From Caballeronia turbans (GTDB taxonomy: Bacteria; Pseudomonadota; Gammaproteobacteria; Burkholderiales; Burkholderiaceae): 64,000 bases of DNA. The stretch covers positions 186,001 to 250,000 of the forward strand of contig FCOD02000003.1 in NCBI GenBank assembly GCA_001544655.2, given 5' to 3'. This document shows positions 1 to 6,066 of this stretch, piece after piece. A program made the translations under genes and the position numbers. The stretch's first letter is position 1, and every line of letters begins with the position of its first letter. Under the pieces are notes generated by a model. The model saw only the letters and a list, made by a program, of their open reading frames with translations, was not told the DNA's origin and did no database searches.

Positions 1-506
1 ACTGGATTCAAATCGGACGCAAAGCTTTCGAGTCCGAGGCGCTGGGCTTCGAGCGGCAAGGCCCCGCCTCCTGCGAAGGGGTCGTGCGTCGCTGGCAGGC
101 GAGAGGCATCGAAGAGCTCGGCCGCCTGAGGATGATTGCGGTTCAGCGCGCAGGTTTCACGCCAACTCTTCCATATTTCCTCCCGCGCTTCGTTGAGAAT
201 CTCTTCGTTGCCCGAGTTTTCCCAAAGCACCAGCCGGCGGATCAAGTTGAAAAGTCGCTCCCGTTCCTCCTGAGCCTTTTCTTTATTCACGCCACGCTGC
301 ATCGAGCGCTCAAAGCCGGGGTCATTGACCATCTGCGCAAAGATAACGGCCCGGGCGGCCGCCAGGGGGCGACGCGCCCACCAAAGGTGAAGCGTGGACG
401 GATGCCCGTGGCGGATCGATTTCTCGCGAGCGGCCGCGGCGTTGATGTCGTCGAGCGGCAGCGCGACTTCGATGAGTTTTTTCGGTTTCTTAATGGGCGT
501 GGTCAT
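1..506 (-). CDS. DUF1156-type adenine-specific DNA methylase, N-terminal part (cut by window edge)
   Basis: The frame opens with ATG at 506 and runs off the left edge without a stop, giving 168 complete codons. The first 65 or so residues (key stretch [19 protein letters not shown], about 35-53) match the DUF1156 domain. DPFAGGG at residues 142-148, followed by SDLNP near 165, is the SAM-binding motif I/II region of N6-adenine methylases. Full-length relatives are usually 900 residues or more, so most of the gene lies outside the window. A GAAGG Shine-Dalgarno sequence overlaps the stop of the upstream gene, and the gap between them is only 8 bases, so it is the third gene of the helicase operon. 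Inferred role: DNA modification in an anti-phage or restriction-like system. Family call is fairly sure; system identity is not. Confidence 0.85.
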
Positions 507-514
507 CTAAACCT

Positions 515-1036
515 TCAAAAATCGTCATACAGGGACTCGTCATGGACGAGCCGTTGGCCGACTGCATGCAGCGCGCCGCGCGTGAGCGACTCAAAGATCG
601 GGCTGGAATAGCCGTCGGCCCAGCGTTCGGCACGCAAAAGCGTGTGGACGTGGTGTCGCAATTCGAAAAAGGACCATGAGCCCACCGACTCCTCGACGCG
701 TTCGCCTGGCTCGACCGTCGGTCCGCTCGGCGCGAAGTCCGTGCACACAAATCCGCAGGCATAGGTTCCTTCGACGAACAGCCGGTATTCCGGCAACGCG
801 AAAAATTCCTCGTAGCGATCGAGGGGCAACCACTCGCGACTCGGCGTTGAAAAGTGGCGTAGCGCAGCCTTTTCCAAATGGTCGATCAGAAGCGCCAGCG
901 CTCGCGCCTGGTATTCGTTGACCGCGCTGCGTTTGCTCGCCGGCCGCCTGCGGATACGCTGTTGACGAAGGCCCGTCGCGAGCGCGGGCGACTGCGCCGT
1001 CAATTCGTTGCTGTCCGTTTCACGCTCGGCGTTCAT
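515..1036 (-). CDS. Hypothetical protein between helicase and DUF1156 methylase
   Basis: A 173-residue protein that I do not recognise. The first 35 residues are polar and Arg-rich, followed by a compact region with aromatic and acidic segments (for example [14 protein letters not shown] around 80-93) and an acidic end LYDDF. There is no signal peptide, membrane segment or obvious catalytic motif. Its ATG overlaps the helicase stop as ATGA, and its own stop lies 8 bases before the methylase start, so the three genes are almost certainly one translationally coupled operon. A role as specificity factor, adaptor or small regulator of the methylase/helicase pair is inferred only from position. 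Expression as a real gene is well supported by the coupling. Confidence 0.7.
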
Positions 1037-4000
1037 TCTCGGCCTCGGGCGCCTTTGCGCAATTTGGCGATGTCATAGTTGACACTGGTGGTCCCCCAAT
1101 CCGGCTCGCGCTGAAAAGGGTTTTGGATGTAAAGCGGAGGTTCCGCTGTCTCTCCGTCCACCATCACGATCGCCAAGAAAAATTTGTCGCCTTGGTTGAG
1201 GCCCTGAATGATCTCGTTGCTCGTGACGGTGATCGTCGTTTGGCCTTTGGCGCGCCCTTTGACTTCGATATGCCGGGGCTCAGACGTTGCGCCGTTGACC
1301 GCGGGCGGCTGAGAGGTGATGTCCCACCCAATGCACTGCGCGGACACGTCCTTAGTGGCGTTTCCCAACGCGTGCTCGGCGTCGAACACTGCTTGCATGG
1401 CGATCCGCTCGACGCGGCTGCGCGCCGCGGCGTCCACGGCCCAGGCCACGGTTTCCTCGGTCGGTTGTCGCTCGGCCCACAAAGCGGCCGGCAGCACGAG
1501 GGCGCCGCCGACGACCAAGGGCGTCGACGACACCACTTGCCGCATCGCCCGCAGCTCGCGCTCGCGGCTTTCCCGACGGGCGGTCAGCTCGTCGATTGTG
1601 CGCCGGACATTCTCCAACGGCAGCCGCGCGTCTTTGCCGGCCGCAAGATCCGCTTTGAGCTTGCTGTGCCGCTCCGACCAATGGTCGATCTCTTTGACCA
1701 GGCGCTCGTGAACGGCCGCCAACGTTTTGTCGACTTGCTGCTCTCGCCGTTGACGCGTCTCGGCCAAGTGCTCCGGCAACAGTTGCGTGGCCGCGTGCGC
1801 GATCGCTCGCGCTTCCAAATCGCGTTGAATCCAGGGCTGCGCCAGCACGTCTTGAACGCGCGCGCGGCCGGCGTCATCGATCGGAACCAAGTCCAAATGC
1901 GGCGCCCAACCGGCATTAGAAACAGCGCCCTGGGCATCGAGATAAACGAAGTGCAGGCGACGGGAAATGACGCGCTCGTCGGGCCCCGCCTCTTTGATGG
2001 CGTGATCGATCAAAAAGAGCGCTTTGGGCTCGTGTCCCGCGTCGTTGGGATCGACAAACAGGGCTCCGCGTTTAAGCGCGCCCCTGTGATCCGTCAAAAC
2101 CAAATCGGTGAGCGCCTGCATCAGCGGTTGGCCGGGGTGCAGAAGCGTCGCCATGGGCGCCTCGGGACGGTCGGCCAAGCGAATCCCGTTTTTTTCAAAG
2201 CAAACGCGCTCGTAGCTGCGCAACACAGGGTCCACCACGCGCGAGCTGCGCTGCGCGAGCAAGCGAGCGTGCTCGCGAATGGCCGCGGGCACAAACCGGA
2301 TCTCCGAGCGGCCGGCCTCACGCGCCTTCAGCGCGCCGCCGTATTGCTCAAAGGCCTGGGAGAAGAAAGAGCGGATGAAATAAGGCTGCAATTTGCGCGC
2401 TTCGGCCTTGTCCATCTCCTCCTTGACCGCGAACAAGCGCCGTTTGTCGATGATCTCCTCGGCCAGGGCGTTTCGATTCATGATGGCCTTGACGTGATCG
2501 GTGTCCAGCGCTCCATCCACTTGCTGAGTCAATCGCGCGCGCACCGCAGGATCCTCGCCATAACGAATTGCCTCGATCAAAAGATCGCGCAGGCTGCGCT
2601 CCTCGAAGACTTCGCCCAGGATGTCAAAGACACGCCCGCCCAAAGCGCCACGCTCGACATCCAATTTGGCCAACAATCGCTGGAAGACCTCGCCCTCGCG
2701 CGTTTCTGCCGCGACCAGGTTCCACAGGTGGCAGACTTCTGTTTGCCCGATCCGGTGAATGCGCCCAAAGCGCTGCTCCAACCGATTCGGATTCCACGGC
2801 AGGTCGTAGTTGACCATGAGGTTGGCGTTTTGCAGATTCACGCCTTCGCCCGCCGCGTCGGTCGCCAGCATGACCAGGGTATTGGCATCATTGCGAAAGA
2901 GCCCCTGAGCGCGCAGGCGTTCCTCGCGCCCCACGCCGCCGTGAATCTGCACCACCGCTTGGTCTTGCCCCAGCAGGCCGCCAATTTTGCCCGCCAGGTA
3001 GTCGAGTGTGTCGCGATGCTCGGTGAAGATGATGATCTTCCGTCGCCGGCCGTCGGCCGCGTGCATCGCAGGGTTGTTTTGCAGGATGCGCGACAGCTCA
3101 TCCCACTTGCGGTCGCGCTCAGAATGCGCCAAAGCCTTCGCCTGCTTTTCCAACGCGCCAAGCGTGAAAATTTCCGCTTCGAGCTGTTGGATGGTTTGCG
3201 CCGCGGTCGCTTGATCGACGACCTCTTCCTCAAACTCCTCGTAGCGCGACGGATCCAAGTCGTCTGCTGTGTCCCAGATGTCGCCAGCGAAGGCCGTCTC
3301 TCGAGTGGCGCTTCGCTGCCCGCTTTTCTCTTCTTCGACGCGGCGCACAAGTTTCTCCCGGCGCCGACGCAGCGACTGGTAGATCGCCGCCGGGCTTGAT
3401 GCGAGACGCCGTTGTAAGGCCGTGAGCGCGAATCCCACCGTGCCTTTGCGCTTGCCGTCGGCCAAGGCGTCCGCTCGGTTCATCTCCTCGCGCACGTAGT
3501 CGGTGACGCTTTGGTAGAGGGCTGCCTCGTCAGGCAACAACGAGTAGTTGACGGTGTAGGCGCGGCGCTCGGGGAACAACGGCGTGTTGTCGAATTTGAC
3601 CAGGTCTTCTTTAACCATTCGCCGCATCAAGTCCGATACGTCGACTTTCATCGCCCCGTCGCGGAACTTTCCGTGGAAGCGATCGGAGTCCAACAGCGAC
3701 ATGAAGAGCTGAAAGTCTTCTTCTTTGCCGTTGTGGGGCGTGGCCGTCATCAACAAAAAATGGCGCGAAATTTCGCCAAGGAGCTTGCCCAGTTTGAAGC
3801 GGCGCGTCTCGTTAATCTTCGCGCCATACCACGTGGCCGACAATTTATGCGCTTCGTCAACGACAACCAAATCCCATCGCGTCAAGGCGAGTTTCTCTTG
3901 CAGCTCGTCATTGCGCGCGAGCATGTCCAAGCGCGCGATCATCAGCTCTGTTTCTTCGAAGGGATTGGGGCCGCGGCTCATTTGCTCGAATTCACGAGAA

Positions 4001-4545
4001 AAAATCGCAAACTGCAGGCCGAATTTTTCGTCCAACTCCTCGCGCCACTGCTCGACCAGGCTGCCGGGCGACACGATCAACACGCGGCGGGCGTCGGCGC
4101 GCATCAGCAGCTCGCGAATCAGCAGCCCCGCCATGATGGTCTTGCCGGCGCCAGGGTCGTCCGCGAGCACGTAGCGCAGCGGCTGGCGCGGCAGCATGGA
4201 CTCGTAGACCGCCGTGATTTGATGAGGCAATGGCTCGACGTTGGAGGTGTGCACCGCCATCATCGGGTCGAAGAGGTGCGCCAGGCTGATGCGGCTCGCT
4301 TCGGTCGCCAATTTGAACGTCGCCCCGGAGGCGTCAAACGCCCAGGGCCGCTCGTCCTGCGCCAGCGCCAAGCCGGCTTCTTCATCCCGCAGGATCATCC
4401 GCTCCGCCAACCGCCCATCGTTCGTTTTGTAGACGACGGCGACGGCGTCAGGCCCGGACGGCTCCGCGCTCAACACCCGCGCAGCTTGCCCCGGCTCCAA
4501 GCCCGTCAAGACAGCGTTTTTGACAATTTGTTCGAGTTTGAGCAT
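1033..4545 (-). CDS. DEAH-box SNF2-like helicase with C-terminal DUF3883-like domain
   Basis: A 1170-residue superfamily 2 ATPase. Visible motifs are Walker A DDPGAGKT (129-136), DEAH (230-233), TATPHNG (267-273), and the C-terminal helicase half with GEGVNLQ and [10 protein letters not shown] (about 560-600). The last 110 residues contain a RHIEVKGRA segment typical of DUF3883, a nuclease-fold-related domain often found at the end of defence helicases. The middle is a long helical region. Family knowledge: such proteins translocate on DNA in phage-defence islands near methylases. It is the first gene of the operon with the two genes above. No strong Shine-Dalgarno sequence precedes the ATG. 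The start is the first ATG after a non-coding stretch and gives a normal N terminus. Function in defence is inferred. Confidence 0.88.
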
Positions 4546-4588: not shown

Positions 4589-5175
4589 CGTCAGGCAGAG
4601 CGCAAAGCTACAAATTATCGCGCAATTTCGTCGGGCGAATGCCGGCCGAGTCGATTTTTAGCAACTGCCTGGCGCTCACCATTTTCGGTTCGCTTTGGAT
4701 GAAGCTGATCGCGGCGTCAAACGGTCCTGGTGTTTAGGAGCTACGGCGCCACACCAGACGGATGCCTCGACTAAACACTGGCAATGCGGATCGGGATGTC
4801 AGGCGAAGACACGGGCAAAGGCTGGCAGCGCGAGTAAGCTTAAGACCGGTGCGTCAAGGCCAATTCAGAAACGCGCTGCCACGCGCAGGGAGCGAACATC
4901 GTGCTCGGAATCGTCAAAAGCCGCGGTCGCTACGAAGTCGAACGCCCCAGGCGTGCTTGTGATAGTCATGCGCCCGGCTCCCCTGTGGACGGGGGACTCG
5001 ACGTTCTGGCTCGTTGTGTGCCCGCGTTTGTCCGGCGATATGAAACTTAAAAGTGGAATCTGCGCGAAAGTCGGGAGGCGCCACGTCTGATCTCCGAGTC
5101 CTCGGGAAGCATCCTTCGTTTCGCAGTCAGCAATGCTGTTTCGAACGATTGTCACGTAGTCGGAAGGAGGGAGCC
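4589..5175. other. Non-coding or decayed stretch between helicase operon and prophage remnant
   Basis: About 590 bases with no convincing gene. Frames on both strands lack recognisable protein motifs and good ribosome-binding sites. The stretch must contain the promoter of the minus-strand helicase operon and the upstream signals of the terminase-like remnant. It may be decayed mobile-element DNA, but no inverted terminal repeats or transposase fragment were recognised. Confidence 0.4.
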
Positions 5176-5490
5176 GTGAGTGGACGAAATTCCAATCAAA
5201 TCGGGCAGAAAGCCAGCTTTGAGGATGCAAGCGTGATGAGAAACTTGACCCCAGCTGCCGTAGCTCACTGGCCGGTTGCTATCAGGCAGTTGCGCGATGC
5301 CGACGTGTTGGATGCTGTGGACGCCCGTTCGTTGGCGTCATACTGCGAAGCGTTCGCGCGGTGGTGCGCGGCGGGCGAGGAAGTCGCGAAAATGTTAATC
5401 GAGTTTGGCGTGGCGTCAGGCCGTCGGGTGCAACAGCAGACCGGTCCTTCTCAGGGGGCCAATAGCCGTGGAGTGGTGGGCATCAGGACG
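5176..5490 (+). pseudogene. Truncated P27-type phage terminase small subunit
   Basis: GTG at 5176 is preceded by a very strong Shine-Dalgarno sequence (GGAAGGAGGGA). The product begins with a short GRNSN-type basic start, then a helical stretch (AVAHWPVAIRQLRDADVLDA, SLASYCEAFARWCAAGEEV) that fits the P27 family of phage terminase small subunits, which bind pac/cos DNA. P27 proteins normally continue with a second conserved helical block (NPALS...RKAAE type). Here the frame instead passes through an unrelated linker directly into an AlpA-like sequence with no stop. I read it as a deletion product that removed the 3' part of the terminase gene. It is evidence for an old prophage at this site. 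Confidence 0.55.
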
Positions 5491-5712
5491 ATGACTGAAC
5501 CGATTCGACGAGAGCCGAAAGCGATCATGCGCCTCGGGGAGGTCAAGGGCGAAACGGGTCTTTCCCGGTCAACCATTTACAGCCGCATGAAGGCCGGGAC
5601 TTTTCCCGCTGCAGTGAGGCTCGGCGCGCGGTCGGTCGGATGGCGCGTAGCCGACATTGAAGCATTTCTGGCGTCCCCTTCGGGCTACAAAACAACTACC
5701 GGTGGCACCTGA
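5491..5712 (+). CDS. AlpA-family phage transcriptional regulator
   Basis: A 73-residue protein from ATG 5491. It contains the AlpA-type winged MerR/excisionase helix-turn-helix: IMRLGEVKGETGLSRSTIYS (12-31), then KAGTFPAAVRLGARSVGWR and the closing helix DIEAFLASP. AlpA proteins activate integrase or excision genes of prophages and islands. The reading frame is continuous with the truncated terminase upstream, so an alternative is one 178-residue fusion product starting at 5176. A start at 5491 gives a full normal AlpA length. No integrase is visible nearby; it could lie beyond the left edge or have been lost. Confidence 0.75.
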   Translation: MTEPIRREPKAIMRLGEVKGETGLSRSTIYSRMKAGTFPAAVRLGARSVGWRVADIEAFLASPSGYKTTTGGT

Positions 5713-5986: not shown

Positions 5987-6066
5987 GGATAGGTTGGTAG
6001 CTCAGCTGGGAGAGGGTCGCGTTCGCAATGCGAAGGTCGGGAGTTCGATCCTCCTCCTCTCCACCA
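5987..6066 (+). tRNA. tRNA-Ala-like sequence (CGC anticodon) with defective 5' acceptor; probable attachment-site scar
   Basis: From the D stem GCTC at 6000 to the CCA at 6064-6066 this reads as a tRNA: D arm, anticodon stem TCGCG/TGCGA with loop TTCGCAA (anticodon CGC, alanine), variable loop, T arm GGGAG-TTCGATC-CTCCT, acceptor strand CCTCTCC, A, CCA. The 5' side does not fit. The best partner, GGATAGG at 5987-5993, has one mismatch (T4 with C69), and six bases rather than two separate it from the D stem, giving 80 nt. It sits exactly between prophage-like DNA and the first core gene and is followed by a terminator. Either it is an aberrant functional tRNA or the 3'-derived copy left by island integration; I favour the latter. 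Confidence 0.5.

Follow-up and report, generated by a model that had tools for sequence, protein, structure and literature searches.

A small gene of no described family between hmaA and hmaB in an island-borne Hma operon of Caballeronia turbans

What is a small gene doing between a helicase gene and a methylase gene, with hardly a base to spare on either side? The question is raised by the left edge of a 64,000-nucleotide (nt) stretch of Caballeronia turbans DNA (contig FCOD02000003.1, positions 186,001 to 250,000, from a genome of 7.35 Mb), which we call the window. Three open reading frames (ORFs) lie there, all on the minus strand: a helicase gene (4545-1033), an ORF for a 173-residue protein that we call M (1036-515), and a methylase gene that begins at 506 and continues past the left edge. 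The helicase stop and the M start share the letters ATGA (1033-1036), and 8 bases (507-514) separate M from the methylase gene. A preliminary description, made from the letters of the window, had placed the ORFs, the overlap and the gap in this way and read them as part of an anti-phage island. That observation is confirmed, and the interpretation is partly supported. With the left flank of the window added to complete the operon, we consider it very likely that the locus is an intact Hma operon (hmaA-M-hmaB-hmaC) on a ~29.4-kb island at a transfer RNA (tRNA) gene, tRNA-Ala(CGC), and that it carries M, at the hmaA/hmaB junction, as a passenger that most likely acts on its own.

The core genes of this operon are all accounted for by Hma models. 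hmaA (1033..4545, minus strand; 1170 residues) matches the PADLOC model HmaA (PDLC00659) with 1913.7 bits over residues 1-1166. hmaB (1..506, minus strand) has the first 168 of its 952 residues in the window and the rest to the left, as far as contig position 183648 (L008:3648 on a fetched stretch); the whole protein scores 1588.8 bits against HmaB (PDLC00660) over residues 1-951. The DUF499 ATPase gene that the preliminary description envisaged beyond the left edge does follow the methylase gene: hmaC (L007:14728-17658, outside the window) matches HmaC (PDLC00662) near full length with 1458.9 bits. All three reading frames are free of internal stops. We call the operon Hma because these scores are near full length and those for DrmD and BrxHI/BrxHII far lower; helicase, methylase and ATPase genes also stand together in one operon. 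It is a complete, apparently intact Hma (Type-1 BREX-related) system whose activity is predicted. An anti-phage type operon on an island, kin to the DUF1156/DUF499 sets and cut at the left edge of the window, had been recognized correctly. The three-gene order that could not then be named is in part a described one, namely hmaA and hmaB of the helicase/methylase/ATPase system with an extra gene between them; for this extra gene, the libraries searched contain no described family.

The domains and motifs of the three core proteins are those of Hma. HmaA carries SNF2/ResIII/Helicase_C domains, with a Walker A motif from residue 128 and DEAH at 230-233, and ends, as the preliminary description had it, in NOV_C (PF13020, expectation value (E) 9.5e-19, Pfam), which we take to be the former DUF3883. 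Within this C-terminal domain D1075 is kept in 49 of 50 aligned rows, and E1094 and K1096 (E1094-x-K1096) in all 50; they are putative catalytic residues of a PD-(D/E)XK-like domain. HmaB is a DUF1156 methylase (PF06634, E 1.2e-32), also as described earlier, with DPFAGGG at 142 and DPPY at 558, the latter presumably fitting an amino-methyltransferase. HmaB and HmaC together show DPFAGGG, DPPY, GGGKT and ILIDE, and HmaC has no HEPN match in Pfam. PADLOC describes its HmaB model as a DNA-adenine methylase. Hma was named in 2021 as a helicase, methylase and ATPase system with HmaB termed an m5C (5-methylcytosine) methyltransferase (Payne 2021, PMC8565338), and was treated in 2026 as a Type-1 BREX-related system, related at depth to Type-3 BREX, with HmaB of the amino/adenine class (PMC12839542). 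The latter also cites a study confirming a phage-defense role for an HmaA. Under the published model, HmaB would mark host DNA by methylation at some motif, HmaC, the DUF499 ATPase, would assemble a scanning complex, and HmaA would act on unmodified DNA, cutting it with its C-terminal nuclease domain.

The locus shares with Hma (Type-1 BREX-related) systems the order hmaA-hmaB-hmaC on one strand, a NOV_C helicase, a DUF1156 methylase with DPPY and a DUF499 ATPase without a HEPN match. The nuclease at the C terminus of Type-1 BREX-related helicases would be represented here by NOV_C with the conserved D...ExK, its nuclease activity being predicted from the sequence. Two genes set the locus apart: the extra 173-residue gene M, and a DUF3800 gene (L007:13727-14617, contig 179727-180617, outside the window) that lies on the same strand, 110 nt after hmaC. 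A tblastn search of 38 other Hma loci, not all of which extend beyond hmaC, found no relative of the DUF3800 gene, and we therefore leave it out of the Hma system. Type-2 BREX-related systems are not matched: the DUF3780 protein and the phospholipase D (PLD)-type nuclease suggested in the preliminary description were found neither in M nor in HmaA, respectively (no DUF3780 and no HKD/PLD domain in Pfam at E up to 1), and HmaA reaches only 169.1 bits against the phospholipD_antiphage model, whose cut-off is 1100.

The junction that M occupies varies widely in other Hma operons. We assembled 52 loci, namely our own, 32 genome regions and 19 plasmid regions. The genome regions were taken from 42 distinct listed matches other than our own (10 were dropped as truncated or weak) and the plasmid regions from 62 plasmid records, 40 of them listed. 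Measurements were made in 49 loci; L033, L050 and L068 were dropped for want of a complete hmaA stop or a downstream hmaB match. The hmaA-hmaB gap is at least 300 nt in 32 of the 49 operons, counts here not being independent (HmaA is close in L036/L038/L039 and in L022/L042/L064). Gaps between hmaB and hmaC reach at least 600 nt in 18 of 42 operons and measure 462-557 nt in another 13, a length consistent with an N-terminal HEPN extension, as several loci have in their annotation.

The contents of the hmaA/hmaB junction differ from operon to operon. Acidovorax and Methylomonas have no gene there, and Rhizobium rhizogenes has a Septu pair. Rhodobacter carries a single hypothetical gene, Chlorohelix one together with a transposase, and Bradyrhizobium four genes. 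Embedded ORFs were called mechanically, and some of them were run against PADLOC. This identified PtuA/PtuB (Septu) in L020 and L046, TmtA in L028, the Hma-embedded candidates (HEC) HEC-09 in L045 and HEC-08 in L036, and the PADLOC defense candidate (PDC) PDC-M38A/B in L041. By similarity clustering, PtuB-like genes occur in six loci, TmtA-like genes in five and genes of the NYN/HEC-09 type in five. Several junction proteins gave no PADLOC match, at E 1e-5 for L058, E 0.01 for L021, L040 and the first gene of L022, and E 1 for M; therefore, not every occupant is a recognized defense gene. The L058 protein, from Aeromonas caviae (L058:12549-13046; 166 residues), also lacks a Pfam match at E 0.01 and is perhaps another undescribed embedded gene. 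In Thermus oshimai, an annotated IS4 transposase lies inside the tblastn span of hmaB (L063:12635-17327), and hmaB appears to be interrupted there.

A tree of HmaA (50 rows) sets these contents against descent. The rows nearest to our own carry Septu (L044, L047, L046), an NYN gene (L045) or nothing (L018) at the junction, and the smallest well-supported set holding our row has 22 rows. L036 and L039, joined by short branches, differ in having HEC-08 and NYN, respectively. Over 49 labeled rows we counted 28 content changes, only a little above the 21 that are forced by the 22 labels, which were of our own making. The tree thus supports turnover of the junction mainly through near neighbors that differ.

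The start of M on the hmaA stop has parallels at this junction. Of the 32 junctions that hold extra DNA, 16 have an ORF of at least 60 codons overlapping the hmaA stop by 4 nt (ATGA, GTGA or TTGA), M included, and hmaB itself starts on the hmaA stop in 8 of the 17 operons with smaller gaps. The same overlap test gave 4 of 45 at the hmaB stop and 2 of 36 at the hmaC stop. The contrast is large; it includes related loci, so we attach no probability to it. Among the 16 ORFs, the one in L054 (62 codons) is probably spurious. Our reading is that whichever gene lies downstream of hmaA often has its translation coupled to that of hmaA, and that embedded genes frequently acquire this start position; for M, too, such coupling at the hmaA stop codon is probable. 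These counts provide a rule, simple and open to testing, for the starting points of many embedded genes, and the titles and abstract beginnings surveyed contain no statement of the overlap.

M itself, an unknown protein in the preliminary description, belongs to no family described in the libraries searched. Its only Pfam match is to Phage_Gp84 (E 0.15 over ~20 residues; 0.27 for residues 39-173), which we take as chance. PADLOC (0 families) and NCBIfam gave no match at E up to 1, the HEC and PDC models of PADLOC-DB 2.0.0 gave none for M, and its two homologs, L013 and L057, gave 0 at E up to 0.01. A peptide-seeded scan of GTDB contigs confirmed a single homolog, L013 from Paraburkholderia ginsengiterrae, which is 61% identical over residues 1-171. 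Between M and L013 the nonsynonymous and synonymous divergences are dN 0.30 and dS 1.52 (near saturation), with 50, 39 and 89 changes at codon positions 1, 2 and 3 over 172 codons. With this homolog and this difference between dN and dS, M is a real gene, and one under constraint.

A second relative came from 58 genomes of the genus, our own included. It is 43% identical to M and forms the N-terminal half of a 314-residue fusion protein in genome G1038 (L057). Its contig carries dndB and dndC (PF14072, 431 bits; PADLOC DndC 553.8 and DndB 531.9 bits), with dndB ~6 kb from the fusion gene and other ORFs between them. Using L013 as query, we found distant relatives on two enterobacterial plasmids, of Atlantibacter and E. 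coli (E 4e-5 and 2e-4), which were confirmed pairwise. A three-sequence hidden Markov model (HMM) run on the embedded ORFs of the Hma junctions finds only M, the next best values being E 0.094 and 0.12. Other candidate relatives were rejected: a match on a viral contig (L017) lies on the opposite strand of a 728-residue ORF, and two marginal matches in 369 genomes of the class (E 0.006 and 0.007, one with an internal stop) were treated as chance.

Some of these relatives hint at DUF6508 (PF20118), a family of unknown function. L013 matches it with E 0.0015 (18.8 bits, profile positions 5-124 of 129), the N-terminal 152 residues of L057 with E 0.011 (16.0 bits) and the Atlantibacter plasmid ORF with E 0.038 (14.3 bits). 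All three fall short of the cut-off of 23.6 bits, and the profile matches neither M nor the E. coli plasmid ORF. The link rests on single-sequence matches under the threshold, because no DUF6508 members were obtained for a profile-profile test; M is perhaps distantly DUF6508-like. The whole L057 protein matches APH, not DUF6508 (E 0.0016, 18.7 bits versus a cut-off of 23.2, residues 97-170). Searches for DUF6508 found none in our own genome at E up to 1 and 0 in sets of 90 and 55 genomes, in which some control genomes did match, and the family is not named in the literature searched.

The other half of the fusion protein recurs elsewhere. The C-terminal part of L057 matches the junction protein of a Rhodobacter plasmid (L021; 36.7% over 49 residues) and a 305-residue protein of the Polaromonas plasmid pPNAP05 (L077:5857-6774; 47.5% over 80 residues), and these two match each other over ~143 residues. 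The Polaromonas gene lies in a type I restriction operon with the order methyltransferase gene, hsdS, YhcG-type PDDEXK gene, LprI-family gene, 305-residue gene and hsdR; Pfam, searched with E up to 10, shows nothing in its product. Like M, it is an embedded gene with a 4-nt overlap, here with hsdR, and it matches the second domain of L057. It has, however, no M-like domain (best HMM E 0.11), and PDDEXK and LprI-family genes stand between it and hsdS. Two other modification-based systems thus hold, as an embedded gene, the domain that is fused to an M-like protein in L057; with three proteins involved, this is suggestive only.

M is most likely an embedded, independent defense or counter-defense helper. 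It could form a second layer of defense, or act as a guard or helper, for example by sensing or relieving phage inhibition of Hma. M is probably not a core part of Hma, because its relatives occur without Hma on the fetched stretches of both L013 and L057, the latter with dndB/dndC. hmaA, hmaB, hmaC and the DUF3800 gene are absent from 16.5 kb around L013 (best tblastn E 0.059). Several results weigh against M as an independent defense helper. The surroundings of L013 are catabolic genes, judged by eye, with no defense gene recognized within 8 kb, on a stretch from which only the M homolog itself was run against the defense library; from this context, the M family is not strictly defense-linked. 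M is also rare. As a query it found 0 of 72,556 plasmid records (E 0.01) and 0 of 50,697 phage records (E 0.1), and none of 299 genomes of the family other than our own matched at E 0.001; across the overlapping samples of 369, 58 and 299 genomes, G1038 is the one clear match beyond our own. An AlphaFold model from a two-sequence alignment has a mean pLDDT (predicted local distance difference test) of 48.4, from which no function can be derived. Further, half of the junctions that hold extra DNA (16 of 32) have a first gene that is off the hmaA stop, including the HEC-09 type gene of L045: the NYN genes of L038, L039, L045 and L063, for example, start ~130-150 nt past the stop, and in L044 the first gene shares 11 nt with hmaA.

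M might instead be an accessory subunit or regulator of its own Hma complex, such as a reader or a brake. Its close fit between hmaA and hmaB would suit such a role, as would its small size and its mostly helical fold in the low-confidence model, and a precedent exists in DUF3780, described in PMC12839542 as the small in-operon partner of Type-2 BREX-related systems. A dedicated subunit is nevertheless rather unlikely, given that no M-like gene was found among the embedded ORFs of other loci or in six frames of 38 other Hma loci, that the nearest HmaA rows carry Septu, an NYN gene or nothing in its place, that M has relatives with no Hma nearby, and that it lacks a DUF3780 match.

We think it more doubtful still that M is a functionally neutral hitch-hiker that landed in the junction. 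The rarity of M and the catabolic neighbors of L013 would agree with this, whereas a dN/dS of ~0.2 between M and L013 (dS near saturation), a start placed exactly on the hmaA stop codon, and several junction occupants that are defense-type genes argue against it. It is very improbable that the operon should be classed with DISARM or BREX and not with Hma: HmaA does match the PADLOC models DrmD (399.5 bits) and BrxHI/BrxHII (316.5 bits), but far under the 1913.7 bits for HmaA, hmaB and hmaC are present in the same operon, and the question is one of rank, not of absence of kinship (PMC12839542). DISARM-like systems, with which the preliminary description had compared the locus, were rejected in particular, as the DrmD-class helicase score of 371 bits is below the curated cut-off of 610. 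The core partners in DISARM are DrmB and DrmC.

M as an embedded, self-standing helper would join a known class of genes. The HEC families come from a 2024 preprint (Payne), as cited in PMC12988326, PMC12629846, PMC11411939 and PMC12111858, and nuclease effectors within such operons are reported in PMC12839542. Like HEC and PDC genes, M lies between core Hma genes, and the HEC-08 (L036) and HEC-09 (L045) genes occupy the very same hmaA/hmaB junction; the difference is that M matches no HEC or PDC model. The embedding of defense genes in Hma has thus already been published, and M is new as an occupant within the scope of PADLOC-DB 2.0.0 (2023), Pfam and NCBIfam. New anti-phage proteins have often come from genes embedded in known defense operons. 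M is of interest among these genes in having no described family, a constrained homolog, and a fused relative whose second domain occurs inside two other modification-based systems. As a tentative extension, which we hold to be possible and not probable, M could found an undescribed family of small defense adaptors, perhaps distantly DUF6508-like, that plug into DNA-modification defenses, with the hmaA stop as a favored "docking" point for coupled gene swaps. The basis for this is the embedding of M in Hma, the fusion on the dndB/dndC contig (L057), and the second domain in the L021 junction and L077.

The operon lies on an insertion. The island of ~29.4 kb extends from an intact tRNA-Ala(CGC) gene (contig 162626-162701, the left end, outside the window) to a displaced 3' copy of that gene, at 5996..6066 on the plus strand (contig 191996-192066), which is 98.6% identical over 71 bp and forms the right end. 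The tRNA-like boundary of the preliminary description is this copy. At 6009-6066 there is also a match to the transfer-messenger RNA (tmRNA) clan, with 22.9 bits, under the gathering score of 47. The two outer flanks were joined into a 401-nt query. Its matches are nearly whole and contiguous, marking an empty site, in at least 10 of the 57 further genomes compared from the genus (G1022, G1043, G1037, G1038, G1070, G1035, G1042, G1056, G1061 and G1058). In at least 11 others the halves of the query are ~11 to 54 kb apart on one contig, marking an occupied site. With both empty and differently filled sites in the genus, the tRNA-Ala(CGC) site is therefore a hotspot at which integration has recurred, and the island is an inserted element absent from many relatives.

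A tyrosine (phage-type) integrase gene with a DUF6538 N terminus (L009:16760-18373) lies beside the intact tRNA gene, and an AlpA-type regulator of the island (PF05930, E 1.9e-15) is encoded at 5053..5712 on the plus strand. The prophage remnants of the preliminary description find some support in this integrase and in the AlpA ORF; no further phage genes were found among the 13 of 26 listed ORFs that were run against Pfam. The N-terminal half of the AlpA ORF matches the phage terminase small subunit (PF05119, E 7.8e-5) with 23.4 bits, just under the cut-off of 24.7, possibly a trace of a phage or satellite. The island also carries two RepB/ParB-type genes, a pentapeptide-repeat protein and an HNH protein. 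This last, an HNH_3 protein with N-terminal helix-turn-helix (HTH) matches (L007:9585-10466), shows a weak match to ZorE (E 0.004).

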